NCBI RefSeq assembly: GCF_000174755.1
Contig: NZ_ACLQ01000024.1
Coordinates: 1-64,000, forward strand
DNA: 64,000 nucleotides
Direction: 5' to 3'
Origin: Capnocytophaga gingivalis ATCC 33624
GTDB lineage: Bacteria; Bacteroidota; Bacteroidia; Flavobacteriales; Flavobacteriaceae
Of this stretch, positions 34,025 to 63,801 are shown piece by piece. Each line of letters starts with the position of its first letter. Positions within the stretch are counted from its first letter, which is position 1. The translations under genes were made by a program, and so were the position numbers. A model generated the notes under the pieces. That model was not told the DNA's origin. It made no database searches and worked only from the letters and a program-made list of their open reading frames with translations.

Positions 34025-34097
34025 GACTTGGTAGCTCAGTTGGTAGAGCACAACACTTTTAATGTTGGGGTCCTGGGTTCGAGCCCCAGCCAGGTCA
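34025..34097 (+). tRNA. tRNA-Lys(UUU), first copy
   Basis: A full cloverleaf can be drawn: acceptor GACTTGG/CCAGGTC (one G-U), D arm AGCTCAGTTGGTAGAGC, anticodon loop CTTTTAA with TTT, and T arm GGGTTCGAGCCCC. Discriminator A; CCA is not encoded. Confidence 0.97.
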
Positions 34098-34135
34098 CAT
34101 TTTTTCATTTTGAGAGATTTTAAATTTTACGCGGC

Positions 34136-34208
34136 GACTTGGTAGCTCAGTTGGTAGAGCACAACACTTTTAATGTTGGGGTCCTGGGTTCGAGCCCCAG
34201 CCAGGTCA
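34136..34208 (+). tRNA. tRNA-Lys(UUU), second identical copy
   Basis: The 73 bases are identical to the copy at 34025-34097, 38 nt upstream. Confidence 0.97.
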
Positions 34209-34223
34209 CACAGAAGATTTTAT

Positions 34224-34296
34224 GACTCGGTAGCTCAGTTGGCAGAGCACGACACTCTTAATGTTGGGGTCGTGGGTTCGAGGCCCACCCGGGTCA
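34224..34296 (+). tRNA. tRNA-Lys(CUU)
   Basis: Acceptor GACTCGG/CCGGGTC, anticodon loop CTCTTAA with CTT, T arm GGGTTCGAGGCCC. It resembles the UUU copies and probably arose from one. It reads AAG codons. Confidence 0.95.
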
Positions 34297-34342
34297 CTAT
34301 ATTTTAGTTGTTGTAGCTAAAAGTAATATTGGGTTTTATTTT

Positions 34343-34426
34343 GCCTACGTGGAGAAATTGGTAGACTCGCCATCTTGAGGGGGTGGTGCTCGTTAGGGCG
34401 TGCTGGTTCGAATCCAGTCGTAGGCA
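34343..34426 (+). tRNA. tRNA-Leu(GAG)
   Basis: 84 nt with a long variable arm (class II). Acceptor GCCTACG/CGTAGGC, anticodon stem CCATC/GGTGG, loop TTGAGGG with GAG; T arm GGTTCGAATCC. Discriminator A; CCA not encoded. Confidence 0.95.
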
Positions 34427-43100: not shown

Positions 43101-43126
43101 AAACTCAAAATTCAAAACTCAAAACT
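43101..43126. repeat. Heptanucleotide repeat (CAAAACT)n next to der
   Basis: About three and a half units of CAAAACT (one is CAAAATT) end 3 nt from the der stop codon. The same unit separates the DKNYY genes at 53.8-60.3 kb. Confidence 0.75.
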
Positions 43127-43128
43127 CT

Positions 43129-44433
43129 CTACTTTTCTCTAAAGAAAATATCCAAAGGTACCCCTTCGAAGTTAAACTTCTCTCTGAGCTTGTTCTCCAC
43201 AAAGCGGCGGTAAGGATCCTTGATATATTGGGGAAGGTTCGCAAAAAAGACAAACTGAGGCAGGTCAGTAGGCAATTGCATACAATACTTGATCTTGATA
43301 TACTTTCCTTTGGTAGCCGGTGGAGGAGTAGCCTCGATGATAGGGAGCATATACTCATTCAGTACCGAGGTTTTGATACGCTGGCTACGATTGTTATACA
43401 CCTCTACTGCTTTTTCTATCGCTTTGTAGATACGTTGCTTGGTTAGGGCAGAGATAAAGATGATAGGCACATCGGTGAAGGGGGCGATGATCTTGCGAAT
43501 CCCTTCCTCAAAATGCTTGGTGGTATGGGTATCTTTCTCTACCAAGTCCCATTTATTGACCAGGATAACCACTCCTTTTTTGTTGCGCTGTGCCAGCCAA
43601 AAGATATTGGCATCTTGTCCCTCGAAGCCACGAGTAGCATCCACCAAGAGTAGGCATACATCGGAGTGTTCTATGGCGCGTACTGAGCGCATCACCGAGT
43701 AGAACTCCAAGTCTTCTTTGACTTTTGCTTTGCGGCGTATCCCTGCGGTATCCACCAGGTTGAACTCAAAGCCAAAGCGATTGTAGCGCGTATCAATAGC
43801 ATCGCGGGTGGTGCCAGCTATATCAGTAACGATATAGCGATCTTCTCCAATAAGAGCATTGATAAAGGACGATTTTCCCGCATTGGGGCGTCCCACTACA
43901 GCAAAGCGGGGTAGGGGCTCTTCCTCCACTTTTTCCTCCTCAGGGAGTACTTTGACTACGGCATCCAAGAGCTCGCCTGTACCACTACCATTGACACTGG
44001 AGATAGGGAAGATCTCCTCAAATCCTAAGGCATAGAACTCATTGGCATCAATAGCGCGCTTGGTATTATCAACCTTGTTCACTGCCAGGAAAGTAGGTTT
44101 TTTGCTACGGCGTAGCAGCTGGGCAATCTCCTCATCGATACCCATGATACCACTCTCCACATCTGTTAGGAAGATAATGGCATCGGCTTCTTCTATGGCG
44201 AGGTTTACCTGCTTATCTATTTCTTTTTGGAATATATCATCACCTCCTGCTACATATCCTCCGGTATCTATCACGGAGAAATCGCGTCCGTTCCAGTCGG
44301 TTTTCCCATAATGGCGGTCGCGAGTAACCCCACTGATGCTATCTACGATAGCCTCGCGGCGCTGTACAAGACGGTTAAAAAAAGTGGATTTGCCTACATT
44401 GGGGCGTCCTACAATAGCTACAATAGCACTCAT
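43129..44433 (-). CDS. der: Ribosome-biogenesis GTPase Der (EngA)
   Basis: Double GTPase needed for 50S subunit assembly. The first G domain has [18 protein letters not shown] and NKVD; the second has [18 protein letters not shown] and NKWD; a C-terminal KH-like domain ([23 protein letters not shown]) follows. At 434 aa it is normal length. It has a complete promoter (44449-44478). Confidence 0.97.
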
Positions 44434-44564: not shown

Positions 44565-45053
44565 ATGAGAAATTTGTTTGTCCTTTTCTTTACTCTTTGC
44601 TCTTATGTGGGGTTTGCTCAGAGTGATAGCCTTGCTATTACTCCGCCAAGGAGGTATCCGCCTTCGTGTGATTGTTTTGAGGGAATGATTGACCTTACCC
44701 CGAGGCTGGCTTATACCTATGCCGATGCTAAGAGTTCACACTTTGCGGGGCTGATGCTTCACAATGATTGTATCGCTTGCGGCGGGGGCTTCTATGCAGG
44801 AGTTCATTTTGCGAGCAGAGATTCTCATAGAGTAGTCCCTGAGGTGGGGGCTGAGTTCTATCACCTATTGCTGGGCTATGGGGTCTCTCTTTCCACTGAG
44901 GCGATTACTCCACGTGTAGGACTGTCTCTCTTTAATTTGTTGCGGGCAGATGTTGGCTATGCCATCCCTTGGGCGAAAGCTCCTCTTTTTAAGGGATTTA
45001 TCTTTTCTATAATTACCGATATTCGATTGCTTAGTTATCCATTACCTTTATGA
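44565..45053 (+). CDS. Exported hypothetical protein, probably outer-membrane
   Basis: Signal peptide MRNLFVLFFTLCSYVGFAQ, then a Cys-containing segment (PPSCDCFEGM; CIACGGG) and alternating beta-strand-like stretches (LTPRLAYTYADAK, GGGFYAGVHFA, EVGAEFYHLLLGYGVSL) that suggest a small barrel. Not recognised. Its stop codon overlaps the start of the next gene (ATGA at 45050-45053), so the run is translated from one message. Confidence 0.72.
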   Translation: MRNLFVLFFTLCSYVGFAQSDSLAITPPRRYPPSCDCFEGMIDLTPRLAYTYADAKSSHFAGLMLHNDCIACGGGFYAGVHFASRDSHRVVPEVGAEFYHLLLGYGVSLSTEAITPRVGLSLFNLLRADVGYAIPWAKAPLFKGFIFSIITDIRLLSYPLPL

Positions 45054-46021
45054 AAACAAAAATACTATTATTACTGGCTTTCTTTTCTTTAGGAGGCTTT
45101 ATTATACAGGCTCAAAATAACCAGCTTGAAGGTTTCTACCAAGGGCGTAAGTGGGGGCTTTTCTTGCTCTCTGATAAGAAGTTCTTACTATGGAATCCCT
45201 TAGCTGGGGTAAAGGGAGACTACCAAGTACAAAAAGATGGGATGATATGGTTGCAACCTCAGAAGGAACCGCTTTTTCTGGTCTATGCGCGCAATGATAA
45301 GGACTTATCCAAGGATAAAATACGGGTGGAGCTGGTAAATTTTCAGCTGGGAAAGAACTATATTCACTTGGAGAGGGGTCGGTATTACTCTGTTTTCAAC
45401 GAAGATAATGATTTGGTACATACTTTTGATAGAAAAGAGGTAGGGAAATCTATTACTTTTATAGGGGAAAGCCTCTTTGAAGAGTACAATAAGAAGTTTG
45501 TAGGTATAAAAAATGCTTACGAAGTAGGTATGAATCCAGCTTATAATGATTATATCGTTTTCTGTCATAGTTATTCTCTATATCAAGGGGAAAGTATAGC
45601 TGCTTTTACCAATAAAGATGGAATGGAGATACTTCTTTTAATGAACGAAGAAGAAACCTTAGAAAAGAATAAAGAAGCACTTGCAAAAATACGCTCTAAT
45701 ATAGAAAAAACACCATTAAAAGAAATAAAAAACTATATTTATATCAGAAAAAAAGATGAAAATGAAAAAGAAATGTTGAAGACGGTACAATCTCAATTAG
45801 GGATAGAGGATTCCAATACTATATTTAGAGAAAAATATGAAAGAGAGGGTACCTCTCCCTATGAATATATGGGGGAAATTACTTATGATAAGGAAAAAAA
45901 TATATATAAAGAGGCGGAACGAGATCGGACATATCACAAATATGATCTTATAGATACAAAAAAATCAGAAATAGATATGAAAAAACTAAAAATAAAAATC
46001 TCACCATTGTTTCCTGAATAA
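45050..46021 (+). CDS. Exported protein of an unrecognised tandem family, copy 1
   Basis: Signal peptide MKTKILLLLAFFSLGGFIIQAQ, shared nearly word for word with the next two genes. The conserved part (about residues 25-150) has KEPLFLVYARND, DKIRVELVNFQLGKNYI, RYYSVFNED and HTFDRKEVG. The 3' half is much richer in A (Lys/Glu/Asn) and has lost the family's C-terminal KTIFVSECE motif, ending in KISPLFPE. No known domain is recognised. It is the most diverged of the three. Confidence 0.8.
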   Translation: MKTKILLLLAFFSLGGFIIQAQNNQLEGFYQGRKWGLFLLSDKKFLLWNPLAGVKGDYQVQKDGMIWLQPQKEPLFLVYARNDKDLSKDKIRVELVNFQLGKNYIHLERGRYYSVFNEDNDLVHTFDRKEVGKSITFIGESLFEEYNKKFVGIKNAYEVGMNPAYNDYIVFCHSYSLYQGESIAAFTNKDGMEILLLMNEEETLEKNKEALAKIRSNIEKTPLKEIKNYIYIRKKDENEKEMLKTVQSQLGIEDSNTIFREKYEREGTSPYEYMGEITYDKEKNIYKEAERDRTYHKYDLIDTKKSEIDMKKLKIKISPLFPE

Positions 46022-46035
46022 TAACTAAAATGCTT

Positions 46036-47019
46036 ATGAAAACAAAAATACTTTTATTACTGGCTTTCTTTTTCGTAGCGAATAGCTCTTCAGCTCAGGA
46101 CAGAAAGCTAATAGAGAGCTATAAGCAACCCGAATCGGGCATTATGCTTTTTCCGAATAAGACTTTTGCCGCTTGGACTTATATGACGGTTATTCGTGGC
46201 TATTACCAAAAGAGACCCGATGGGGTCTACTTATTAAAGCCTCAGAGAGAACCCTTGTTCTTGGTATATGGGTATCATAATGATTCCATTGGGAAAGATA
46301 AGGTGCGTATCCGTTTTGCCAATTTTGAAGAGGGGAAGAACTATATTCAGTATGAGAATGGAAAGACCTATAGTGTATTCAATGATAACCCTAACTGTTT
46401 TTCTTACAAATATATACATACCTTTGACAGAAAGGAAGTAGGTAGTACGCTTACCCTTATACATCATATGGGATACTATGATGAAGACGTGTCATATTTA
46501 TTTGAGGGAGAGGGGATTAAGAACACATTGCAATTTGACTTGGGAGCGTATAATGATTTCTTGATTTCTTATGAGGAACTTAACCATCTGAAAGCAGATA
46601 TGGTGCTTGTACCTATGGAGTTAGAAGGGGAAAAGGGGGCTTTTTTTCATAGAGGGAAATGGCCAGAGGAGGAACTAAAAATGGTTAAGGAGAGATTGAA
46701 GGAAGTACCTAAAGAGGATCTCAAAAGGTTTTTTACTCCTAAGGAAGAGCCTGAGAAAATTAATGAAGAGTCTATCTCTTTCCTTTATGCAGATAACATA
46801 GAGCCTCCTACCACACTGATTGTCTCAAAGAAAGAAAATAGAGTAGTGGGGGGTAGCTACACTTCAAAGCCTATCAAAAATAAAAAATATCGATCATACT
46901 TGCAGGTCAAGACACAGGGAAGTATCACAGACCCTAAGCAGCTTAAGGTGGAGCCTAAAACCATCTTTGTCTCCGAGTGTGAAAGACCTTCCCAAAGAAG
47001 AGAAATAATGGCTAATTAG
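46036..47019 (+). CDS. Exported protein of an unrecognised tandem family, copy 2
   Basis: The ATG at 46036 (MKTKILLLLAFFFVANSSSAQ) is preferred to the upstream ATG at 46030 by comparison with its paralogues. Shared motifs are REPLFLVYGYHNDSIGKDKV, RIRFANFEEGKNYI, ENGKTYSVFNDNPN, HTFDRKEVG, a central Glu-rich segment and the C-terminal KQLKVEPKTIFVSECERPSQ. Probably periplasmic or surface located; function unknown. Confidence 0.8.
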   Translation: MKTKILLLLAFFFVANSSSAQDRKLIESYKQPESGIMLFPNKTFAAWTYMTVIRGYYQKRPDGVYLLKPQREPLFLVYGYHNDSIGKDKVRIRFANFEEGKNYIQYENGKTYSVFNDNPNCFSYKYIHTFDRKEVGSTLTLIHHMGYYDEDVSYLFEGEGIKNTLQFDLGAYNDFLISYEELNHLKADMVLVPMELEGEKGAFFHRGKWPEEELKMVKERLKEVPKEDLKRFFTPKEEPEKINEESISFLYADNIEPPTTLIVSKKENRVVGGSYTSKPIKNKKYRSYLQVKTQGSITDPKQLKVEPKTIFVSECERPSQRREIMAN

Positions 47020-47079
47020 CCAATCTTCAGGGGAATTGCAATTAAAGCAGTTAAAAGATAAAATTTTAAAACTAATATC

Positions 47080-48087
47080 ATGAAAACAAAAATACTTTTA
47101 TTACTGGTTTTCTTTTCTTTAGGAAGCCTTGTATATGCCCAAGAAAAAGATATTTCAGGCAATTACAGAGGGCGTGGAGGAGGTATTATGCTCTTGCCTA
47201 ACAGATTATTTGTCCTTTGGGGCTATATGACAGCTGTACCAGGGAGTTATGAGGTTCAGAAGGACGGTATCATCCGCTTCAAGCCAAAGAAGGAACCGCT
47301 ATTTGTCGTGTATGGGCAGCGAAATGACTCTATTGGGAAAGATAAAGTCCGTATTCGCTTTGCCAATTTTGAAGATGGGGAGAATTTTATCCGCTTTGAG
47401 AATGGAAAAACCTATTCAGTTTTCAATGACAACCCCAATTGCCTTTCTTCTCGCTATATACATACCTTTTCAAGAAAAGAGATGGGTAATTCCTTTTCTT
47501 TGATTACGGATATACAAGACTTTAGTTTTGCTCCCTTTTTGGGAGAGCTGAAAAATACTTATCAAATTGATCTACAGAATAATAATGACTTTCTTATCTC
47601 TTATCAGAAACCTTCAGTATATCAGATAGATGGAGTAGGTGCCTTGGTAACCAAGGAAGGACATGAGTGTTTGCTTTTCCTAAATTGGGGAGATGTGGAG
47701 GGAAGTACACAGTATATACGAGAACTCAAAGAAAAGATTGATAAAATCCCTATAGAGGATCTCAAAAAAATTATATTTGCTAAGGAGAAGACGGAGGATA
47801 AGGAGCTTAACGACTTTCTCAGTATCTCCAATTTGGAAGAACCTAAGGCGTTTTTTATGAATATAAAAGAGGGTACTGTAGATCCTGAGCCTGTTAATTG
47901 GGAGTTCTTAGTGTATGATAAGGATAAAAATATCTACAAGGATACCCTGAATGATATTGGGTATTATAGGTTTGACTTTGTACAACCCAAATGTTATCAG
48001 ACAGACCTTAAAAAGCTCAAGGTAGAGCCTAAAACCATTTTTGTATCTGAATGTGAAAAACCTTCTAAAAGAAGGATATATCAATAA
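47080..48087 (+). CDS. Exported protein of an unrecognised tandem family, copy 3
   Basis: Signal peptide MKTKILLLLVFFSLGSLVYAQ, then the same blocks as copy 2 (KEPLFVVYGQRNDSIGKDKV, RIRFANFEDGENFI, FENGKTYSVFNDNPN) and the ending KKLKVEPKTIFVSECEKPSK. Closest to copy 2 at both protein and DNA level, so that pair is the younger duplication. 9 nt separate it from the DUF3592-like gene, with which it is probably cotranscribed. Function unknown. Confidence 0.8.
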   Translation: MKTKILLLLVFFSLGSLVYAQEKDISGNYRGRGGGIMLLPNRLFVLWGYMTAVPGSYEVQKDGIIRFKPKKEPLFVVYGQRNDSIGKDKVRIRFANFEDGENFIRFENGKTYSVFNDNPNCLSSRYIHTFSRKEMGNSFSLITDIQDFSFAPFLGELKNTYQIDLQNNNDFLISYQKPSVYQIDGVGALVTKEGHECLLFLNWGDVEGSTQYIRELKEKIDKIPIEDLKKIIFAKEKTEDKELNDFLSISNLEEPKAFFMNIKEGTVDPEPVNWEFLVYDKDKNIYKDTLNDIGYYRFDFVQPKCYQTDLKKLKVEPKTIFVSECEKPSKRRIYQ

Positions 48088-52082: not shown

Positions 52083-52110
52083 CAAAATTAAGAAAAAATG
52101 AGTATATTTG
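52083..52110. promoter_or_regulatory. Divergent -7 elements between AraC and DKNYY genes
   Basis: TAATTTTG on the minus strand (52083-52090) and TATATTTG on the plus strand (52103-52110) lie 12 nt apart. -33 elements are not clear for either. Confidence 0.5.
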
Positions 52111-52132: not shown

Positions 52133-53827
52133 ATGAAATATGTTTTATATGGGATATTAGTACTGACTATAATGCAGCATAGTACGGCACAATATCGTAA
52201 GATACAGCTTACAGATGCCAAGCGGGTGGAACACCTCAAGTTAGAAAGTCGATCGGCACGTTGTAAATATAACGAAGGGTTTATCTATAACAAGGATTAT
52301 ATGATTTACCAGGCTTGCGATGCAGCAGTTACTTTCCGTCCCGATAGGGAGACCTTCCAAATAAAATATAGGGGTTATGGTTTCGCAGTGGATAAAAAAG
52401 GGGTCTATTATCAGGGGCAATTCGTAAAAGTAGATACCACAGGACTTAGGGTATTGGCAAGTCGAGAGGTTAAGGAGATAAAGGGGTATGTAAATGGTAT
52501 TGCTGCCTATTATTGGCGTACCAATGGGGGCGTATTCTTTGGAACAAAACGGCTTTCTGTTCCTGATCCTCAGACCTTTGAAGCGCTTACGTATTGTTAT
52601 TTTAGGGACAAGAATCACGTATATTATTATGATCAAATCATAAAAGGAGTAGACCCTAATCTCGTCAATGAAAAACTCAGTAGAGACGAACTCCTCAATG
52701 AGGGTAAAAATGTCTATTATAAGGGAAAACGCCTCTATTATAAGGGAGAGGTGGTAGAGCAAATGACCTCTAAGATCTTCAAAACTTCTAAATATGTATT
52801 GGGTTATGATGGTAAGGAAGATAAGCAAACCCATTCCATATTGGTAGAATTGCATTCGGAACCGTTCGATATCCCAACCCTTAGAACACTCTCAGACTCT
52901 TATCTGATAGACAAGAATCATCTGTATTATATTCCTTCTTTTTATTCTGTACCAGATAGAGGATTCAGAATGCCTGTTTCCAAGGAAGAGTTCTCCTCAA
53001 TAAGAGCGTTTACCGAATTTGTTGTGGTGGGTTCTACCGTTTATCATGAGAGAGAGCCTAAAGAAAGATATGATGCAGCTACTTTTAGGGTCATTCCAGG
53101 GCATTATTACTATCAGTATGATAAGAATGGAATCTATAATTGGCGTAAAAAACTACCTTTTCGCTATACAAAGCGTCCTGAGTATGGGAAAAATCTTTTC
53201 TATATAGATGAAAAAAATCTCTTTATTTATGAAGATCAGGCTTACTATCGTGACAGTGGTGATAGTATATACATAAAGGATCTCTCCTCCCAACAGATAG
53301 AAATACTCAAACAAGGAAAGACCTCGCTTAAGGATTTGTTACCTCCTCATAAGGAACCTCCTCAAAAAAAGGAAAAGTATGACTATAATCTTTATAAAGT
53401 GGACGGGCATATTTATATAGGAGAGGAGCTACAAAAAGACATAGATGCAGCTACCTTTCAGTACATAACGGGTTATTTCTATAAGGATAAAAATCACGTA
53501 TATTACTATGACAGATGGAGAGGGAAAGAAGCACATTTCTTGATTGTAGAGGGGTATGATATAGCCACCCTCAGGGGAGATCCTAATGGGTTTATGATGG
53601 ATAAGGATTATTACTATTATGGCACTACAAGGCTTTTTAAAAATAAAAATGTAGAGCTTTTGGCGGTCTATACAGGCTACCGTCAATGGTGCAGTCGTGA
53701 TAATACCCCCACTACAGACTATTGTCTCTTTAAGAATGCTGAGGGATATTGGCTTTTCGAGTTCGGTAACGAAAATATAATTTGCTTCTTGGGTAAAAAA
53801 CTAAAAATGAGAAAATTGGTAAATTAA
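52133..53827 (+). CDS. DKNYY-repeat exported protein 1
   Basis: The ATG at 52133, just after a TATATTTG box, gives signal peptide MKYVLYGILVLTIMQHSTAQ and a 564-aa protein; the longer open frame from 51998 would start inside the AraC gene. The body repeats short units around DKNHVYYYD, DKKGVYYQG, DKNGIYNWR and DKDYYYYGTTRL, the DKNYY domain pattern (Pfam PF13644), roughly every 40-60 residues. Such repeats probably build an elongated beta-structured exported protein; the function is unknown. First of five tandem paralogues, no lipobox. Confidence 0.85.
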   Translation: MKYVLYGILVLTIMQHSTAQYRKIQLTDAKRVEHLKLESRSARCKYNEGFIYNKDYMIYQACDAAVTFRPDRETFQIKYRGYGFAVDKKGVYYQGQFVKVDTTGLRVLASREVKEIKGYVNGIAAYYWRTNGGVFFGTKRLSVPDPQTFEALTYCYFRDKNHVYYYDQIIKGVDPNLVNEKLSRDELLNEGKNVYYKGKRLYYKGEVVEQMTSKIFKTSKYVLGYDGKEDKQTHSILVELHSEPFDIPTLRTLSDSYLIDKNHLYYIPSFYSVPDRGFRMPVSKEEFSSIRAFTEFVVVGSTVYHEREPKERYDAATFRVIPGHYYYQYDKNGIYNWRKKLPFRYTKRPEYGKNLFYIDEKNLFIYEDQAYYRDSGDSIYIKDLSSQQIEILKQGKTSLKDLLPPHKEPPQKKEKYDYNLYKVDGHIYIGEELQKDIDAATFQYITGYFYKDKNHVYYYDRWRGKEAHFLIVEGYDIATLRGDPNGFMMDKDYYYYGTTRLFKNKNVELLAVYTGYRQWCSRDNTPTTDYCLFKNAEGYWLFEFGNENIICFLGKKLKMRKLVN

Positions 53828-53835
53828 CAAATGAT

Positions 53836-53876
53836 CAACTCAAAACTCAAAACTCAAAACTTAAAACTCAAAACTA
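53836..53876. repeat. (CAAAACT)n heptanucleotide repeat before DKNYY gene 2
   Basis: About five and a half units, one with TAAAACT. The array ends 2 nt before the ATG at 53879. Confidence 0.85.
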
Positions 53877-53878
53877 TC

Positions 53879-55051
53879 ATGAACCGTCTTTTACTTTGTA
53901 CTTTGTTAGTGGTCGCTTGCAAGCAAAAACCTGCGGAACAAAAAGATTCCTCAGAGGGTTTGACAACTCATATAGTGTCCATAACTGACCCGGATGATTA
54001 TCAGGTCTATTTCTCTGACCAATATGGTAATAGCTATAGTGAAAAATATATAGTTTATGAAGATTATGTACTCTATCAGGGGAAGAAAGCTACCCTGCGC
54101 CTTAGCCCTGATATGGCTACTTTCAAGGGGAAAGGAGACGGGTTTGCTATGGACAAAAATGGCATCTATTACCGTGGCTATTTCTTCCCAATGGATACCA
54201 CAGGCTTTAAAATAGTTGGGGTAAAGGATATTCCTCTAAGTGAGGAAAATACTCCTATTTGGAAAACCAATAAGAAAGTATTCTTTGGCACGCAACCTAT
54301 GGAGGTAGCCCATCCCAAATCCTTTGAAATGGCGTATGATTATTATACTCCATGCTATTATTTCAAGGACAAGGAGTTTCTGTATTTCTGTGAGAAAAAG
54401 ATAGAAGGTTCTGATAGCCAATATATAAGATTATCTGGTATTACCTATGCAGTAGCAGATAAAAACCATACTTATTATAAGGATAAAATTCTCACTTATA
54501 AGGGAGAGCCTGTAGAACTCTTGACAGAGGATTTTTTCAAAACCTCTCGGCATGTACTTGCTTTAATATTGGACGTTGGGGGAGATGATGCTCCTTATTG
54601 GAAGGAAGTATCCTATATGGATGTTGCCACCCTTAAGGGACTTTCTATTGATAGCCTTTCAGGCGCTTCTTCAGGTTATCTTATGGATAAAAACCATGTG
54701 TTCTTTAGGGAAAAAGTACTCCCTATCAAAAAAAGAGATTTTGACAAGATTCAAACTTTTGGAGCCTATTCTTATATCTCCGATGGTAAGACTATTTATC
54801 ACAGGAGTGACCCTACGCCCTACGATGCTCATACTTTTGGGATAGTGCCAGAGTACGCTGGAGACCTTGTTTATGACAAAAATGGTATTTACAAAAATGG
54901 AGAAAAACTCCCTTTCAAATATACCACTCCGCCTGTATGGGGCAAAAATGCTTTCTTAGAAGGCGAGAAGGTTATCTACCAGCAACAAATCTATGATATC
55001 AGTGACCAATGGCAATTGATGACCGATGAACCAACAACTAACGACAAGTGA
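53879..55051 (+). CDS. DKNYY-repeat lipoprotein 2
   Basis: The ATG at 53879 gives lipoprotein signal MNRLLLCTLLVVAC with the +1 Cys followed by KQKPAEQKDSSEG. The open frame runs back to an ATG at 53831, but that part would translate the repeat array and spoil the signal peptide. DKNYY units include DKNGIYYRGYF, DKEFLYFCE, DKNHTYYKDKI and DKNHVFFREKV. At 390 aa it is shorter than its neighbours. Basic/acidic residues after the Cys recall the surface-export signal of Capnocytophaga lipoproteins, so surface display is possible. Confidence 0.83.
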   Translation: MNRLLLCTLLVVACKQKPAEQKDSSEGLTTHIVSITDPDDYQVYFSDQYGNSYSEKYIVYEDYVLYQGKKATLRLSPDMATFKGKGDGFAMDKNGIYYRGYFFPMDTTGFKIVGVKDIPLSEENTPIWKTNKKVFFGTQPMEVAHPKSFEMAYDYYTPCYYFKDKEFLYFCEKKIEGSDSQYIRLSGITYAVADKNHTYYKDKILTYKGEPVELLTEDFFKTSRHVLALILDVGGDDAPYWKEVSYMDVATLKGLSIDSLSGASSGYLMDKNHVFFREKVLPIKKRDFDKIQTFGAYSYISDGKTIYHRSDPTPYDAHTFGIVPEYAGDLVYDKNGIYKNGEKLPFKYTTPPVWGKNAFLEGEKVIYQQQIYDISDQWQLMTDEPTTNDK

Positions 55052-55085
55052 CTAATGACTACTTACTTGTCATTATCTAAAACCC

Positions 55086-55134
55086 TATAACTCAAAACTC
55101 AAAATTCAAAACTCAAAACTCAAAACTCAAAACT
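55086..55134. repeat. (CAAAACT)n heptanucleotide repeat before DKNYY gene 3
   Basis: About seven units (one CAAAATT), ending 3 nt before the ATG at 55138; the longest array of the set. Confidence 0.87.
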
Positions 55135-55137
55135 CTT

Positions 55138-56856
55138 ATGAATCGTCTCTTACTTTGTACTTTGTTACTCGTTGCTTGCAAGCAAAAACCTGTAGAGCAA
55201 CTCCCTACTACTACCAATGAGAAGGCAGTGGTACAAGATACTATAGCTGTATCTGATATTCATCGCACGGATTCCCTATGGCATTCCTTTTGGGAATACA
55301 AGCGTCCCTATGTGGAGGGCTATATCATCAATAGGGATTATGTCATCTACCAAGAAAAAAATACCCGCAAGATCATAAAACCTGATATGGCGAGCTTTGC
55401 AATCCTCAATGTATCGGGATCGGCAGCTGACATAATCCTGATTTTTGCCAAAGACAAAAATGGGATCTATTACCAAGGGGATTTTATAAAGATAGATACC
55501 ACAGGCTTTAGAGTAGTGGGCGTTATAAGCCATCATGACAAGCCGTCTGACTATTGGGAAGAACCTATTTGGCGAACTTATAAGCAGGCTTTTAGGGGAA
55601 CAAAACCGATTGCTATCTCCGATCCTGCGACCTTTGAGTCGGTTTCCACTTGTTATTTCAAGGACAAAAACTATCTATACTATTATGACCGAAAGGTGGA
55701 GGGAGCTGATGTGGCTACCCTTCAGAAGGAACGGGCAGATGAGGAATTTGTCTCCGACAAGGACAATACCTATTACCGAGGGAAGCCCTTTATCTACAAA
55801 GGAGAGCGGGTACAGCAGGTATCGAATAATATATACAAAACCACTACCCATGTATTGCGCTATAATGGAGGAGATGATGATAAGGAAAAGGAGAAGGCGA
55901 AGGATTATTTTGTGGAACTCCCTGATTATTTTGATATTCCTACCTTACGAAGGCTGAATGATTACTATTTGATAGATAAAAACCACCTCTATTATGATGA
56001 AAATAGCTATCCATTAGAAAATAAAGATCTTAGAGTGCCCATACCCAAGGAGAATTTGAGTAAAATAAAGTTGTTTGAGGTTTTGGTCACCGATGGAAAC
56101 AAGCTTTACAATAGAAAAGAGCCACTCTCTGACTATGATGCGGCTACTTTTGGGGTTGTTCCAGGGCATTATTACTATCAGTATGACAAGAATGGGATAT
56201 ATAATTGGCGTGAAAAGCTGCCTTTCCACTATACAAACCGCCCTGAGTATGGGAAAAACTTTTTCTATATGGATAATCAGAGCCTATTTGTCTATGAGGA
56301 TCAGGCTTATTATAAAACTTACAACGATAGCCTCTATGTACCTCACCTCACCCCTCGGCAGTTGGCGTTGCTCAAAGAAGGAAACACACCCCTAAGGGAA
56401 TTATTCCCTTCTCAAGACGATAAGCAAAAGAATAAAGAAATAGACACCACAGGCTTTGAGGAGCTTTCCTATTTCTTTTGGAGGCATAACGGACAGATTT
56501 ATCATTTGATTTATAAGGAGTGGTATGATAGTGACCAACATGATTGGAAGAGCGAACGTAGATATGTAGTAGTAAAGGGTTATGACAATGCTTCTCTAAG
56601 GGTAGTACCCAATGGTTTCTTAGCCGATAAAGATTATTGGTATGATGGTACTACAAGGCTGTTCCCAAGCAAGGACGTGGAGCTTTTGGCTATCTATGAG
56701 GGCTATGAGAAAGGCTGGGGTATGGATCCCGCCCCTAGTCCTAATTTCTATCTCTTTAAGAATGCCCAGGGGTATTGGTTGGCCGAATTAAGCGGAGAGG
56801 GGGCAATGTGTCCATTGACCAATGAGCAAGCCAATAAATTATTAAACCAACAATAG
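55138..56856 (+). CDS. DKNYY-repeat lipoprotein 3
   Basis: Lipoprotein signal MNRLLLCTLLLVAC, then KQKPVEQLPTTTNEK and a 572-residue body with DKNGIYYQGDF, DKNYLYYYDRKV, DKDNTYYRGKP, DKNHLYYDENS, DKNGIYNWREK and DKDYWYDGTTRLF. Very close to the next gene along its whole length, including DNA, so the pair is a recent duplication. The protein should be anchored in the outer membrane by its lipid. Function unknown. Confidence 0.86.
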   Translation: MNRLLLCTLLLVACKQKPVEQLPTTTNEKAVVQDTIAVSDIHRTDSLWHSFWEYKRPYVEGYIINRDYVIYQEKNTRKIIKPDMASFAILNVSGSAADIILIFAKDKNGIYYQGDFIKIDTTGFRVVGVISHHDKPSDYWEEPIWRTYKQAFRGTKPIAISDPATFESVSTCYFKDKNYLYYYDRKVEGADVATLQKERADEEFVSDKDNTYYRGKPFIYKGERVQQVSNNIYKTTTHVLRYNGGDDDKEKEKAKDYFVELPDYFDIPTLRRLNDYYLIDKNHLYYDENSYPLENKDLRVPIPKENLSKIKLFEVLVTDGNKLYNRKEPLSDYDAATFGVVPGHYYYQYDKNGIYNWREKLPFHYTNRPEYGKNFFYMDNQSLFVYEDQAYYKTYNDSLYVPHLTPRQLALLKEGNTPLRELFPSQDDKQKNKEIDTTGFEELSYFFWRHNGQIYHLIYKEWYDSDQHDWKSERRYVVVKGYDNASLRVVPNGFLADKDYWYDGTTRLFPSKDVELLAIYEGYEKGWGMDPAPSPNFYLFKNAQGYWLAELSGEGAMCPLTNEQANKLLNQQ

Positions 56857-56857
56857 C

Positions 56858-56903
56858 AACTCAAAATTCAAAATTCAAAACTCAAAACTCAAAACTCAAA
56901 ACT
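56858..56903. repeat. (CAAAACT)n heptanucleotide repeat before DKNYY gene 4
   Basis: About six and a half units (two are CAAAATT), starting within 2 nt of the previous stop and ending 3 nt before the ATG at 56907. Confidence 0.87.
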
Positions 56904-56906
56904 ATC

Positions 56907-58610
56907 ATGAACCGTCTCTTACTTCTTACGTTATTACTCGTTGCTTGCAAGCAAAAACCTGTAGAGCAACTCCCTACTACTACTACTACCAATGAGAAGG
57001 CTGTGGAACAAGATACCATACTTGTATCCGATATCCATCGTACAGATTCCCATTCCCTATGGATTTGGGAATATAAGCACCCCTATGTGGAGGGCTATAT
57101 CATCAATCAGGATTATGTCATCTACCAAGAAGAAAATACCCGCAAGATCATAAAACCTGATATGGCGAGCTTTGCAATCCTTGGATCGGGATTAGCCAAA
57201 GACAAAAATGGGATCTATTACCAAGGGGATTTTATAAAGATTGATACCACAGGCTTTAGAGTAGTGGACGTTATAAGGGATAAGCAGTCTGACTATAGGG
57301 AAGAACTCATTTGGCGAACTTATAAGCAGGCTTTTAGGGGAACAAAACCGATCAATATCTCCGATCCTGCGACCTTTGAGTCGGTTTCCACTTGTTATTT
57401 CAAGGACAAAAACTACCTATACTATTATGACCGAAAGGTAGAGGGGGCTGATGTGGCTACTCTTCAGAAGGATTTGGCAAATGGGGAATTTGTCTCCGAC
57501 AAGAACAACACCTATTACCAAGGAAAACCCTTTATCTACAAAGGGGAGCGGGTACAGCAGGTATCGAATCTTATATACAAAACCACTACCCATGTATTGC
57601 GTTACAATGGAGGATATGATGATGAGGAAAAGGCGGAGGATTATTTTGTAGAACTCCCTGATTATTTTGATATTCCTACCTTACGAAGGCTGAATGATCG
57701 CTATTTGATAGATAAAAACCACCTCTATTATGATGAAAGTAGCTATCCGTTAGAGGACAAAGACCTTAGAGTGCCTATTCCCAAGGAGAATTTGAGTAAA
57801 ATAAAGTTGTTTAAAGTTTTTGTAACTGATAGGGACAAGCTCTACAGAGGGAAAGAGCCACTCTCTGGCTATGATGCGGCTACTTTTGGGGTTGTTCCAG
57901 GGCATTATTACTATCAGTATGACAAGAATGGGGTGTATAATTGGGACTATAAACTACCTTTTCGCTATACAAACCGCCCTGAGTATGGGAAAAACTTTTT
58001 CTATATGGGTAATCAGAGCTTATTTATCTATGAGGATCAGGCTTATTATAAGACTTTTTACGATAGCCTCTATGTACCTCACCTCACCCCTCGGCAGTTG
58101 GCGTTGCTCAAAGAAGGAAACACACGCCTAAGAGAATTATTCCCTTCCCAAGACGATAAGCAAAAGAATAAAGAAATAGATACCACTGGTTTTGAGCAGC
58201 TTTCCTATTCTTCTTCGAGGCATAATCCTTTTTGGAGGCATAACGGACAGATTTATCATTTGATCGAGGGGTGGTATGATAATGACCAACATAAATGGAG
58301 GAGGAGCGAACGCCGATATGTAGTAGTAAAAGGCTATGACAATGCCTCGCTAAAAGCAGTTCCCGAAGGTTTCTTAGCCGATAAAAATTATTGGTATGAT
58401 GGCACTACAAGGCTGTTCCAAAACAAGGACGTAGAACTTCTGGCTATCATTGTGGGCCGTCGAGGAGGTTGTCGTGTGGATTCCGCTCCAGGTACTAATC
58501 TCTATCTCTTTAAGAATGCTGAGGGCTATTGGCTGGCCGAATTAGGTCGCGAAGGGGTAATGAGTCCATTAACCAATGAGCAAGTCAGTAAATTATTAAA
58601 CCGACAATAG
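56907..58610 (+). CDS. DKNYY-repeat lipoprotein 4
   Basis: Lipoprotein signal MNRLLLLTLLLVAC, then KQKPVEQLPTTTTTNEK; 567 aa. Near-copy of gene 3: it has two more ACT codons in the Thr run, lacks a 9-residue piece (about VSGSAADII) near residue 95, and carries an extra SSRHNPF near residue 440. DKNYY units as in gene 3. These in-frame size changes show recent divergence by small repeats and indels. Function unknown. Confidence 0.86.
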   Translation: MNRLLLLTLLLVACKQKPVEQLPTTTTTNEKAVEQDTILVSDIHRTDSHSLWIWEYKHPYVEGYIINQDYVIYQEENTRKIIKPDMASFAILGSGLAKDKNGIYYQGDFIKIDTTGFRVVDVIRDKQSDYREELIWRTYKQAFRGTKPINISDPATFESVSTCYFKDKNYLYYYDRKVEGADVATLQKDLANGEFVSDKNNTYYQGKPFIYKGERVQQVSNLIYKTTTHVLRYNGGYDDEEKAEDYFVELPDYFDIPTLRRLNDRYLIDKNHLYYDESSYPLEDKDLRVPIPKENLSKIKLFKVFVTDRDKLYRGKEPLSGYDAATFGVVPGHYYYQYDKNGVYNWDYKLPFRYTNRPEYGKNFFYMGNQSLFIYEDQAYYKTFYDSLYVPHLTPRQLALLKEGNTRLRELFPSQDDKQKNKEIDTTGFEQLSYSSSRHNPFWRHNGQIYHLIEGWYDNDQHKWRRSERRYVVVKGYDNASLKAVPEGFLADKNYWYDGTTRLFQNKDVELLAIIVGRRGGCRVDSAPGTNLYLFKNAEGYWLAELGREGVMSPLTNEQVSKLLNRQ

Positions 58611-58643
58611 CAACTCAAAACTCAAAACTCAAAACTCAAAACT
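58611..58643. repeat. (CAAAACT)n heptanucleotide repeat before DKNYY gene 5
   Basis: About four and a half perfect units running straight from the previous stop codon to the base before the ATG at 58644. Confidence 0.87.
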
Positions 58644-60260
58644 ATGATAAAGGTAGTCTATATTATCCTCTTTTGTATAGGGATATATCCAACAGTGGCT
58701 CAAGAGGATACGGATACAGCTTATATAAAACCTGCTCAGATACAAGAAGGGCTCAAAGCAGAGGTACAGCTTATCTATAACCAAAGGTATCTTATCAATG
58801 ATAATTATGTAATCTATCAAGAAGGAAAGTCAAGAGAAATAATCCATCCAGATATGAAGACTTTTCAATTAGATGATTGGAACAATTTTATGAGGGATAA
58901 AAATATTATTGCCAAGGACAAAAATGGTGTCTATTTTGAAGGAAAGTTTTTTCCCTCTGATTCTGGGTGTCATTTGATTGCCATTATGGATAAGCCTATT
59001 GCTCAGGGGGAGTACTTCCCCTCAGGCAAAGATTGTATTTGGAGAACCCATCATAAAGTATATTTCAATGCAGAAGAAATCCCAGAGGCAGACCCTCATA
59101 CTTTCAAAAGTATGAAATATTTTAATGATTTGTATCATAAGGATAAGAATTATCTATACTATCGTGGCAAAAGACTAGAAGGAGCCGATGTTCAGAGTAT
59201 TCGTCCCTCATATTCTCTTTCAGAGGTTGTCGCTGATAAGAATAATACTTATTACAAGGGGAAAGTCTTCACCTACAAAGGGGAGAGCCTAACACAGCTC
59301 ACAAGTAATATCTTTAAAACACCTCACTATGCGCTTATATTCAAAAATAATAGGGATACTCATAAGGATGAATTTGTAGAGCTTCCTGCCTATGTGGATG
59401 TACATTCTCTTAAGGGATTATCCGAAACTTATGCGATGGATAAGAAAAATGTCTATTATGCTCAAACTTATAAGGCAGATACCTTACTTGTTCCTATCAA
59501 AAACAAAAGGAAGATACGGGTTTTTAATAAATATATCACTGATGGAGTGGATATTTTCAGAGGGCGAAATCAAAAAATAAATCTTGATGCCAAGACATTT
59601 GGAATATTAGGTGACGATTATCTATATGATAAAAAAGGGGTCTACAAAAGTCATGATGTGTCAGAGAAAATTCCTTTTGATTATAAAGCGCCTGTTAGGT
59701 TAGGAAAGAATCTATCTTATCTCAATGGAAATATTTTTTATAATAATCAAGTGTATGATAATTGGGAGGACAAAGTGTATACCCTCACTCAAGAGCAGAT
59801 AGAAGAAGTCAAAAGAAGAAATATTTATCCACATCAGTTATGGGAGAAAACCTCAAAAAAATCCTATCCCCAGAGTGCAGACGAAGCTACTTTCAAATAT
59901 CTATATACAGGACAATATAATTCATTAGGAACAGATAAAAATAGAGTGTATTTTTCTGCCCAACAAAAAATAACTTTTATAGAGGGATATGATATAGCTT
60001 CTTTGAAGGCTGCTTTTGATAGATTCTTCCTAAAGGATAAGGATTATGTATATTATCTTTCTATACGGCTTATAAAGAGTGACAAAGCAGAACTTTTAGC
60101 TTCTTACCAAGGGCATCGTCATTATTGTAGTCATCCTTCTATGCCTGCCTCTGATTTCTATCTCTTCAAAAACGCTGAAGGTTATTGGTTGGTCAAGATA
60201 GGAGGCGGGGTCTTTGTTGAGTTCTTAGGAACTGAATATAACTTGCCAATAATTAATTAA
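58644..60260 (+). CDS. DKNYY-repeat exported protein 5
   Basis: Signal peptide MIKVVYIILFCIGIYPTVAQ (no lipobox), then a 538-aa protein with DKNGVYFEGKF, DKNYLYYRGKR, DKNNTYYKGKV, DKKNVYYAQTY and DKDYVYYLSIRL. Like gene 1 it is of the soluble or surface-released kind rather than a lipoprotein, so the five-gene run has the order signal peptide - lipoprotein x3 - signal peptide. It ends in the same YLFKNAEGYWLVKIGG motif as the others. Function unknown. Confidence 0.85.
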   Translation: MIKVVYIILFCIGIYPTVAQEDTDTAYIKPAQIQEGLKAEVQLIYNQRYLINDNYVIYQEGKSREIIHPDMKTFQLDDWNNFMRDKNIIAKDKNGVYFEGKFFPSDSGCHLIAIMDKPIAQGEYFPSGKDCIWRTHHKVYFNAEEIPEADPHTFKSMKYFNDLYHKDKNYLYYRGKRLEGADVQSIRPSYSLSEVVADKNNTYYKGKVFTYKGESLTQLTSNIFKTPHYALIFKNNRDTHKDEFVELPAYVDVHSLKGLSETYAMDKKNVYYAQTYKADTLLVPIKNKRKIRVFNKYITDGVDIFRGRNQKINLDAKTFGILGDDYLYDKKGVYKSHDVSEKIPFDYKAPVRLGKNLSYLNGNIFYNNQVYDNWEDKVYTLTQEQIEEVKRRNIYPHQLWEKTSKKSYPQSADEATFKYLYTGQYNSLGTDKNRVYFSAQQKITFIEGYDIASLKAAFDRFFLKDKDYVYYLSIRLIKSDKAELLASYQGHRHYCSHPSMPASDFYLFKNAEGYWLVKIGGGVFVEFLGTEYNLPIIN

Positions 60261-60306
60261 AACTCAAAACTCAAAACTCAAAACTCAAAATTCAAAACTC
60301 AAAACT
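60261..60306. repeat. (CAAAACT)n heptanucleotide repeat before the start-less gene
   Basis: About six and a half units (one CAAAATT). Unlike the other arrays it is not followed by an ATG but by TTTATTAAG. Confidence 0.85.
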
Positions 60307-60336
60307 TTTATTAAGATAGTATCAATAATCTCTCTA

Positions 60337-61200
60337 TTGCTTTGTTTCTCCCTGCAAGCACAGCAGAAGCGCTGGCAATTGGATAGTATTCAGCAAATCC
60401 AGTTCTATTCTGACAAAAAAGAATATGTATATAAGACCTTTCATCAGTCCTATGATCCCAAGACAAGAACGGTTACTATGATAGACGAGACAAAAGGAGA
60501 ATGGGGGGATAGGACTAAATATATCTGTGAGTATAGCCCACTGGATAGCCTGCTAAGTCAGACGGTTTATACGTACGACGAAGACATTAAGAAATGGGAG
60601 AAGCAGGAAATGATTCATTATGTATATAGAGGAGCAGAAATCCAAGAGAAAATGTATCATAAAAATGAAATAGGAGACTGGAAAATCCTTAGAACTTCTT
60701 ATATTGAGAATATAGATGGGAAGCTATATCTCAAAAAGGAAGAGAATGGAGAGAAAACGCAAAAAGGTTGGGAAGTTATTACCTATGACCCTCCTAAACT
60801 GTGGCATTATTTCTCTATGCAGGAGCTAAATCCCAAGAAAAAGGTAGCTCCTCAAGAGAAGTATAATAAGAAAGGTGAAGTCATAGAAAAGCTGTATATA
60901 GAAATGGATAACTACAAAGATAAGCAAAAATTTTCTTATGATAACTCAGGGAATATCAGTGAAATAGAACTGTATGAGCTAAGGGATCCCAAAGTAGGAT
61001 TTACAAAGGAAGAAAAAAGAGTGTATACCTATGCCCCCGATATTCTCTATGAGGAAGTTTTAGACAAATGGAAGCAAAACTATGAAAACCGGAAGCCTAA
61101 GAAAGCCATTCTCTCTGAAAAAGTGTACCGAACCCAAAATTCTGGAGACTACAAATTTATCTACGAACATCGTTATTTCTACTCACCCATTAAGCAATGA
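60337..61200 (+). CDS. Exported hypothetical protein whose normal start codon is missing
   Basis: The only canonical start in frame is TTG at 60337, which gives a cut-down signal peptide (LCFSLQAQQ). The frame is open upstream to 60253, and from 60310 it reads IKIVSIISLLLCFSLQAQ, a complete signal peptide that would follow an ATG; the preceding gene has ATG-ATA-AAG at the same place after the repeat, here it is TTT-ATT-AAG. The body (LDSIQQIQFYSDKKEYVYKTF, EKMYHKNEIGDW, KFSYDNSGNISEIELYE) is Tyr/Lys-rich and has repeats like those of YD/RHS-type or MORN-like proteins, but no family is certain. It may be silent, or start at ATT. Confidence 0.65.
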   Translation: MLCFSLQAQQKRWQLDSIQQIQFYSDKKEYVYKTFHQSYDPKTRTVTMIDETKGEWGDRTKYICEYSPLDSLLSQTVYTYDEDIKKWEKQEMIHYVYRGAEIQEKMYHKNEIGDWKILRTSYIENIDGKLYLKKEENGEKTQKGWEVITYDPPKLWHYFSMQELNPKKKVAPQEKYNKKGEVIEKLYIEMDNYKDKQKFSYDNSGNISEIELYELRDPKVGFTKEEKRVYTYAPDILYEEVLDKWKQNYENRKPKKAILSEKVYRTQNSGDYKFIYEHRYFYSPIKQ

Positions 61201-63423: not shown

Positions 63424-63437
63424 GGAATAAACCTTAA

Positions 63438-63801
63438 CAGGTAATAGGTAAAGTTAGCGAGTGTTCGTGCTGGGTATATGATAAAGTCGCACACTGTAGG
63501 GGCGAATTGCAATTCGCCCTTATATTAGCAGGTAATAGGTAAAGTTAGCGAGTGCTCACGCCGAGTATATGATAAAGTCGCACACTGTAGGGGCGAATTG
63601 CAATTCGCCTTTATATTAGCAAGTAATAGGTAAAGTTAGCGAGTGTTCGTGCTGGGTATATGATAAAGTCGCACACTGTAGGGGCGAATTGCAATTCGCC
63701 CTTATATTAACAGGTAATAGGTAAAGTCAGTGAGTGCTCACGCCGAGTATATGATAAAGTTGCACACTGTAGGGGCGAATTGCAATTCGCCCTTATATTG
63801 T
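63438..63801. repeat. Four 91-bp tandem repeats with an 18-bp palindrome
   Basis: Units start at 63438, 63529, 63620 and 63711, each exactly 91 bp. Each contains the perfect palindrome GGCGAATTGCAATTCGCC preceded by CACACTGTAGG. Units 1 and 3 share GTGTTCGTGCTGGG, units 2 and 4 share GTGCTCACGCCGAG, so the array is really two 182-bp A-B dimers. No open frame runs through it. A single shortened copy is at 31053-31093. Looks like REP/BIME-type intergenic DNA. Confidence 0.88.

Follow-up and report, generated by a model that had tools for sequence, protein, structure and literature searches.

Tandem CAAAACT repeats in a run of DKNYY genes of Capnocytophaga gingivalis belong to a genome-wide set of heptamer arrays with a strand rule before start codons

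Five genes of the DKNYY family (PF13644) stand in one row at 52133-60260 in Capnocytophaga gingivalis ATCC 33624, a sixth gene with no Pfam match follows, and tandem copies of the heptamer CAAAACT lie at the junctions. Are these arrays a device of the gene family, acting on its translation or its gene number, or are they part of something wider? We analyzed the window, that is, the whole stretch of 64,000 nucleotides at positions 1 to 64,000 of contig NZ_ACLQ01000024.1 (assembly GCF_000174755.1), from a genome (G000) of 2.66 Mb in 37 contigs. Comparisons were made with one genome per species; three proteins compared across 20 genus members place Capnocytophaga sp. oral taxon 338 (G004) and oral taxon 863 (G001) nearest. 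The window was searched for tandem repeats with TRF, and all arrays listed here were found both by TRF and by pattern search. The features concerned are as follows.

43101-43127, + strand: sixth array, near der, 1 nt past the der stop codon and antisense to der
52103-52110, + strand: putative promoter element TATATTTG, upstream of DKNYY gene 1 and kept in taxa 863 and 338
52133-53827, + strand: DKNYY gene 1 (PF13644, reading frame searched from 51998), with no array before its ATG; missing from the run of taxon 338
53837-53875, + strand: heptamer array J1, 39 nt, ending 3 nt short of the gene 2 ATG
53879-55051, + strand: DKNYY gene 2 (PF13644, reading frame searched from 53831), with a lipoprotein-like start, the signal type judged by eye
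55089-55135, + strand: heptamer array J2, 47 nt, ending 2 nt short of the gene 3 ATG
55138-56856, + strand: DKNYY gene 3 (PF13644)
56858-56903, + strand: heptamer array J3, 46 nt, ending 3 nt short of the gene 4 ATG
56907-58610, + strand: DKNYY gene 4 (PF13644), 82% identical to gene 3
58612-58643, + strand: heptamer array J4, 32 nt, abutting the gene 5 ATG (0 nt)
58644-60260, + strand: DKNYY gene 5 (PF13644)
about 60258-60306, + strand: heptamer array J5, 49 nt, overlapping the gene 5 stop codon
60310-61200, + strand: gene 6, no Pfam match (searched from 60337), with an in-frame ATT where taxa 338 and 863 have ATG

All six arrays have a period of 7 and the unit CAAAACT. The initial annotation had located five of them at the DKNYY junctions and a sixth beside der, and each is present within a few bases, the sixth lying past the der stop codon and antisense, not upstream of a start; it is longer in taxon 863. 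The further claim that every array fills the gap from one stop codon to 0-3 nt before the next start is accurate for the distance to the start at J1 to J4 only. J2 is separated by 37 nt from the upstream stop at 55051, J1 begins 9 nt past the stop at 53827, and J5 is followed by TTT-ATT, not by the ATG with which gene 6 begins in taxa 338 and 863. Nor does an array precede every gene of the family, as the first has none. With up to two mismatches, the pattern CAAAACTCAAAACT has 27 matches in the window, 26 of which fall within the six arrays, while 0.95 are expected from 100 shuffles of the window, the largest count being 4. Rfam, at gathering scores, recovers only tRNAs from the window.

In all three species a lone TATATTTG, which we take to be a promoter element of the Bacteroidota -7 type (consensus TAnnTTTG), precedes the first gene of the run, and no forward promoter element was noticed by eye in the gaps. 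Since such an element was noticed only upstream of the first gene, the run is likely a single operon. Most of its DKNYY paralogs share 31-45% of residues; the exception is the pair formed by genes 3 and 4, and gene 4 is, judging by sequence, a recent duplicate of gene 3. As the paralogs are mostly this divergent and the arrays nearly perfect, the arrays appear younger than most of the duplications, and it is unlikely that all junction arrays were passively inherited from one ancestral duplication. Between genes 3 and 4, the array may have been passively inherited with the duplication.

A census of the genome, complete for CAAAACT at up to two mismatches over 21 bases, yields 31 array sites, 6 in the window and 25 outside it. 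The DKNYY run is the densest place, with 5 of the 31 sites within 6.5 kb, but the arrays are not a property of the run: outside the window some precede unrelated genes, which by their protein sequences are presumably gmk, a gene resembling polysulfide reductase (the polysulfide-reductase-like gene), and one resembling ppiD (the PpiD-like gene). Exact 14-mer matches occur in 4 of 20 genus genomes, with 34 in C. gingivalis, 28 in taxon 863, 9 in taxon 338, and 1 in G007. Confinement to the DKNYY run is thus rejected for C. gingivalis and taxon 863 and is true of taxon 338 at the exact 14-mer level, as all nine of its matches fall in the run. Allowing one mismatch over 21 bases, matches are found in 3 of 20 genus members, C. 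gingivalis counted, and in 3 of 20 other relatives; three exact units are found in 13 of 395 genomes of the phylum, C. gingivalis included. A reversed-pattern control is uninformative for CAAAACT, as the reversal is a rotation of the same unit; a control pattern, ACAACAT twice, is found in 0 of 20 genomes.

CAAAACT is itself one of many heptamers. We sampled 400 kb of the genome as 20 stretches of 20 kb, drawn by script from 14 of the 37 contigs with array loci avoided, and find 16 intergenic perfect lag-7 runs of at least 12 matches and none in coding sequence. Lags of 4-6 and 8-13 give no intergenic runs; lag 14 gives 12 runs, a harmonic of 7, and lag 12 gives 7 runs within genes. For period 7, 48 two-unit perfect tandems are seen, where a third-order Markov model gives 10.2. 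Smaller excesses over the model are seen for periods 6 (51 versus 36.8), 8 (8 versus 3.2), and 9 (6 versus 1.0), those at 8 and 9 resting on small numbers. By the shuffles, the lag-7 runs, and the Markov comparison, a chance origin of the arrays is rejected, and as tandem 7-nt units in excess of chance they resemble the heptanucleotide class of long simple sequence repeats (LSSR). The units are diverse and include ATGATTA, GTGAAGA, CTCACTG, and TTGAACA (19 copies at one place), among others. Of 20 genus members, 9 have ATGATTA arrays, compared to 0 of 20 other genomes.

Across the genus, the period-7 habit is patchy. At one threshold, C. gingivalis has 26 period-7 segments in 400 kb, and G003 and G016 have none in 140 and 120 kb, respectively. 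G017 has 9 in 140 kb, but lag 11 gives 12 there, so that 7 does not stand alone; the 18 segments of taxon 338 in 160 kb all come from one 20-kb stretch, and one of them is a run of N and is to be discounted.

To describe how arrays are oriented, a start was taken as an ATG opening at least 60 codons, with frames and starts called by script. The strand census is complete for CAAAACT (up to two mismatches), near complete for ATGATTA (one mismatch), and limited to fetched stretches for five other families. Among the 31 CAAAACT arrays of C. gingivalis, an ATG lies within 40 nt on the sense side in 20 cases and on the antisense side in 1; this lone antisense case is a 69-codon frame, and the same array also has a sense start. 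Within 25 nt, and with slightly different array ends, the counts are 19 and 1. When the DKNYY genes are set aside, 15 arrays end no more than 16 nt upstream of a sense start and none does so in antisense. Taxon 863 has 10 sense and 1 antisense among 20 arrays, one array being counted both ways, and taxon 338 has 2 and 0 among 2; many of the taxon 863 sites are orthologous to those of C. gingivalis, so the counts are not independent. Two taxon 863 arrays scored as startless do have a start, one in a frame interrupted by N (C90) and the other with an ATG that overlaps the array (C92). In distant Bacteroidota, 13 arrays at nine loci give 4 sense and 0 antisense starts within 40 nt, which are few cases. 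In C. gingivalis, most CAAAACT arrays lie near starts in one orientation, as do start-proximal forward heptamer repeats.

The same holds for other units once orientation is expressed as base content. Within 25 nt of an ATG, ATGATTA shows 1 sense and 12 antisense cases (n = 34), CAATTAA 4 and 0 (n = 11), and TTAGTTG 0 and 4 (n = 4); GTGAAGA, with 1 and 1 (n = 10), departs from the rule. In two further families both strands contain G, and 0 of their 10 arrays are start-proximal. Over seven families and 100 arrays, four DKNYY arrays included, the coding strand before the start is free of G in 40 cases, versus 3 others. A counter-case is found in G013, where a weak heptamer array upstream of a start has G on the coding strand. 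Part of the orientation bias could reflect birth in leaders that were already A-rich rather than selection. A role as leader also fits only part of the arrays, as 11 of the 31 CAAAACT arrays of C. gingivalis lack a sense-side ATG within 40 nt and several are paired in inverted orientation (for example, L037 at 9020/9107 and L051 at 9304/9346) or sited past stop codons.

What would make one strand acceptable before a start? Bacteroidota initiate translation without Shine-Dalgarno pairing. In Flavobacterium johnsoniae, adenines at positions -3, -6, -12, and -13 and low structure favor initiation, and the same paper devotes a section to under-representation of AUG (PMC6847099). From -20 to -1, the leaders of 19 array genes have 51% A and 3% G, compared to 45% and 9% in 156 reference starts. 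Adenine is more frequent than in the reference at -6 (0.68 versus 0.48) and slightly so at -3 (0.53 versus 0.48), about equal to it at -12 and -13, and below it at -5, -2, and -1. For 15 arrays outside the run, the predicted folding energy from -45 to +25 is -2.9 kcal/mol, compared to -5.6 kcal/mol for the reference (p = 0.002), and reversing the arrays in silico at 19 starts shifts the mean predicted energy from -2.4 to -8.4. The array leaders are thus A-rich and, as modeled, open, suited to initiation without Shine-Dalgarno pairing; given the uneven enrichment of adenine by position, they are good leaders in composition and predicted openness and not perfect Kozak-like sequences.

The arrays are not constant between sister species. 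At the orthologous junctions of C. gingivalis and taxon 338, J1 is 39 and 18 nt, J2 is 47 and 19 nt, and J3 is 46 and 60 nt, differences of 21, 28, and 14 nt, respectively, which bears out the expectation that unit number changes. Such whole-unit differences between relatives are a feature of the heptanucleotide LSSR class. J4 measures 32 nt in C. gingivalis, its counterpart in taxon 338 is about 18 nt long and has two units altered, and a J3-like array of 25 nt in taxon 863 adjoins an assembly gap. The polysulfide-reductase-like leader has equal unit numbers in C. gingivalis and taxon 863.

The unit changes as well. The polysulfide-reductase-like leader has CAAAACT in C. gingivalis and taxon 863 and an ATTAATA-type heptamer in taxon 338; the PpiD-like leader has CAAAACT in C. 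gingivalis, AACTATT in taxon 338, and CTAAAAA-type units in taxon 863; and the gmk leader has CAAAACT in C. gingivalis and taxon 863 and no array in taxon 338. At two further junctions, CAAAACT hairpins in taxon 863 stand against ATGATTA-type arrays in C. gingivalis, and one leader has an array in taxon 863 and none in C. gingivalis. As different units occupy the same leaders in sister species, turnover is faster for the unit than for the site. When the leaders of the three genes were scanned in 20 species (60 leaders, starts chosen by script, one threshold), period 7 was found in 9, eight belonging to C. gingivalis, taxon 338, and taxon 863 and the ninth, a weak case, to G013. The gmk leader of G014 looks heptamer-like by eye and falls below the threshold.

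How do these results bear on function? The initial annotation proposed that a slipping 7-bp unit changes spacing and frame and could thereby tune DKNYY translation or switch it, as in a contingency locus. The arrays do sit where translation initiates, and species differ in them by whole units; the predicted energies of J1 (0 versus -3.4) and J4 (-2.3 versus -9.4) differ between C. gingivalis and taxon 338, so that short or altered arrays may have some effect; and a 7-bp array in hmw1A of Haemophilus influenzae is a precedent in which expression is set at the promoter level (PMC8262952). A frame-shift switch is nevertheless rejected: the arrays precede conserved start codons and lie outside conserved reading frames, so that slippage shifts no frame. 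The only start that would put J1 in frame is an extra ATG at 53831, upstream of J1 and in frame with gene 2, which is not conserved, the taxon 338 junction having no in-frame equivalent. Tuning fares little better, as the bases nearest the ATG are nearly constant at J1 to J3 over array lengths of 18-60 nt (J4 is the exception), the predicted energy at J2 and J3 is 0 in all three species, and CAAAACT arrays also precede gmk and further unrelated genes. We regard control of DKNYY translation by unit number as unlikely.

The second proposal, that DKNYY genes are added, removed, or swapped by recombination with shared arrays as the homology, has one fitting case. The run of taxon 338, which lacks gene 1, contains an additional DKNYY gene (gX), flanked by two arrays at a place occupied in C. 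gingivalis by a single array. In taxon 863, moreover, the gene that follows array 1 shares no more than 41% identity with any of the other DKNYY proteins compared. Identity to taxon 338 is 89-91% in aligned pieces between 43130 and 60285, compared to 70-84% in others, and this block, with one end at J5 and the other near der, suggests by its identity level that it may have been exchanged between species. However, breaks in gene order are found at 3 of 13 CAAAACT junctions versus 9 of 52 junctions elsewhere (p = 0.69, low power), which does not support the arrays as general sites of such breaks; two of the three lie in the DKNYY run, one of them beside an assembly gap. Genes 3 and 4 and gX also have similar ends, which could serve equally as homology, and the arrays are short (18-60 nt). 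A recombinational role in gene gain and loss is accordingly judged improbable, even with gX in its favor.

A third possibility is that a dedicated protein binds CAAAACT, as RNA or DNA, and would control a regulon. One unit recurs at dozens of sites, in sense before starts, and such a role has been proposed for TAACTGA in the Beggiatoaceae (PMC4679880). Yet sister species have different units at one leader with the 7-nt period kept, taxon 338 has no exact two-unit match beyond the DKNYY run, and other units in C. gingivalis obey the same G-free rule. By analogy with TAACTGA a binding site may be imagined, and we consider it very improbable.

We favor, at a probability of roughly 0.68, the reading that these are heptamer slippage arrays tolerated before starts where they make G-free, A-rich, open leaders suited to ribosomes that dispense with Shine-Dalgarno pairing. 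It takes in the observed period-7 bias, the orientation rule, the length changes in multiples of 7, the low predicted structure, and the change of unit at a kept site. Intergenic heptanucleotide repeats, as a genome-wide set, would grow and shrink in 7-nt steps by slippage, a process we infer. Slippage by itself does not account for the recurrence of a single unit, CAAAACT, at dozens of unrelated places in the genomes of two species. Directly before starts, only the orientation with a G-free coding strand would survive, with translation as the putative filter, and the surviving arrays would supply a leader rich in A, unstructured, and free of stray start codons. In the DKNYY run, they would act as ribosome landing leaders for consecutive genes of a probable operon. 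Because the sequence adjoining the ATG is mostly unchanged, unit number is probably of little effect. The genome-wide search that the initial annotation had called for thus bears out a special tie to the DKNYY genes only in part, and the arrays at this gene family should not be read as a dedicated switch. A bolder and rather doubtful extension is that continuing, largely sequence-indifferent copying of 7-nt steps could be a source of new leaders in this clade, with site, period, and G-free strand persisting while the unit is exchanged between sister species, so that repeat growth, in place of point mutations in a ribosome binding site, would drive leader evolution.

The features of a good Bacteroidota leader are still under study, and natural 7-nt arrays, nearly all under one strand rule, amount to a natural experiment on which leaders are tolerated; the sister species provide alleles with different units and unit numbers for the same gene. 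In the literature searched, judged by titles and abstract openings, no report deals with CAAAACT arrays or heptamer repeats in Capnocytophaga. Among the closest known systems is the TAACTGA heptamer, described as direct repeats in Beggiatoaceae, Cyanobacteria, and five Bacteroidetes (MacGregor 2015, PMC4679880). As described there, it too has a 7-nt unit, with sets of 2-6 copies in the main genome, is mostly intergenic, lies in forward orientation ending a few nucleotides from a start, differs mostly by 7-nt indels between two related strains, and has other heptamers nearby. Only the architecture is common, as the unit here is CAAAACT. Capnocytophaga also differs in having several unit families under one G-free rule, replacement of the unit at a kept site, and a high density of CAAAACT in a tandem gene family. 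The heptanucleotide class of LSSR (Mrazek et al. 2007, as cited in PMC4679880) is the more general category, and the start-proximal strand rule and the turnover of units between sister species are Capnocytophaga features not noticed in its description in that article.

Two further heptamers share less. GGGNATC of Xanthomonas and Nostoc is likewise found between aligned genes, no more than 50 bp from a start or stop and with a strand bias, but it is G-rich, forms quadruplexes, and occupies the antisense strand near starts (PMC4692102). CAAAACT has no G, and its complement has two per unit that do not form a tract, so that neither strand has the G tract of a G-quadruplex sequence. The (ATCTTTC)n array of hmw1A also lies upstream of its gene and varies in unit number; it is, however, placed between two promoters, with 14-24 copies in the tested strains and less transcript with more units (PMC8262952), in contrast to CAAAACT arrays, whose 2-9 units sit beside the start codon in gaps where no promoter was noticed. 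CAAAACT arrays are therefore a new unit and a new host for a known element, heptamer repeats before starts, to which the strand rule and the turnover of units are additions relative to the heptamer descriptions compared here.

Between positions 43130 and 60285, the window aligns with the genome of Capnocytophaga sp. oral taxon 338 in pieces of 89-91% nucleotide identity, against a background of 70-84%, and this block has probably been exchanged between species. Gene 6 (60310-61200), which lacks a Pfam match and follows the fifth CAAAACT array, carries an in-frame ATT at its start. As ATT replaces the ATG found at that place in both oral taxon 338 and oral taxon 863, the start in this C. gingivalis genome may be weakened or moved.

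Three similar secreted-protein-like genes, judged by eye, lie in tandem at 45050-48087, and their junctions lack the CAAAACT array. Four tRNA genes cluster at 34025-34426, two of them within an 88-bp tandem duplication. A 91-bp tandem repeat of four copies (63434-63799; TRF) lies behind a gene that by eye resembles a TonB receptor.

Other period-7 arrays were also seen. The longest noticed in the C. gingivalis genome, ~19 copies of TTGAACA, lies between two genes of the stretch L071 (19617-19751; G000:C15:39389-39523). Among eight spaced stretches scanned in oral taxon 338, all period-7 segments fall within L130 (G004:C1:600001-620000), where TGAAAAA and CACTGTT types predominate.
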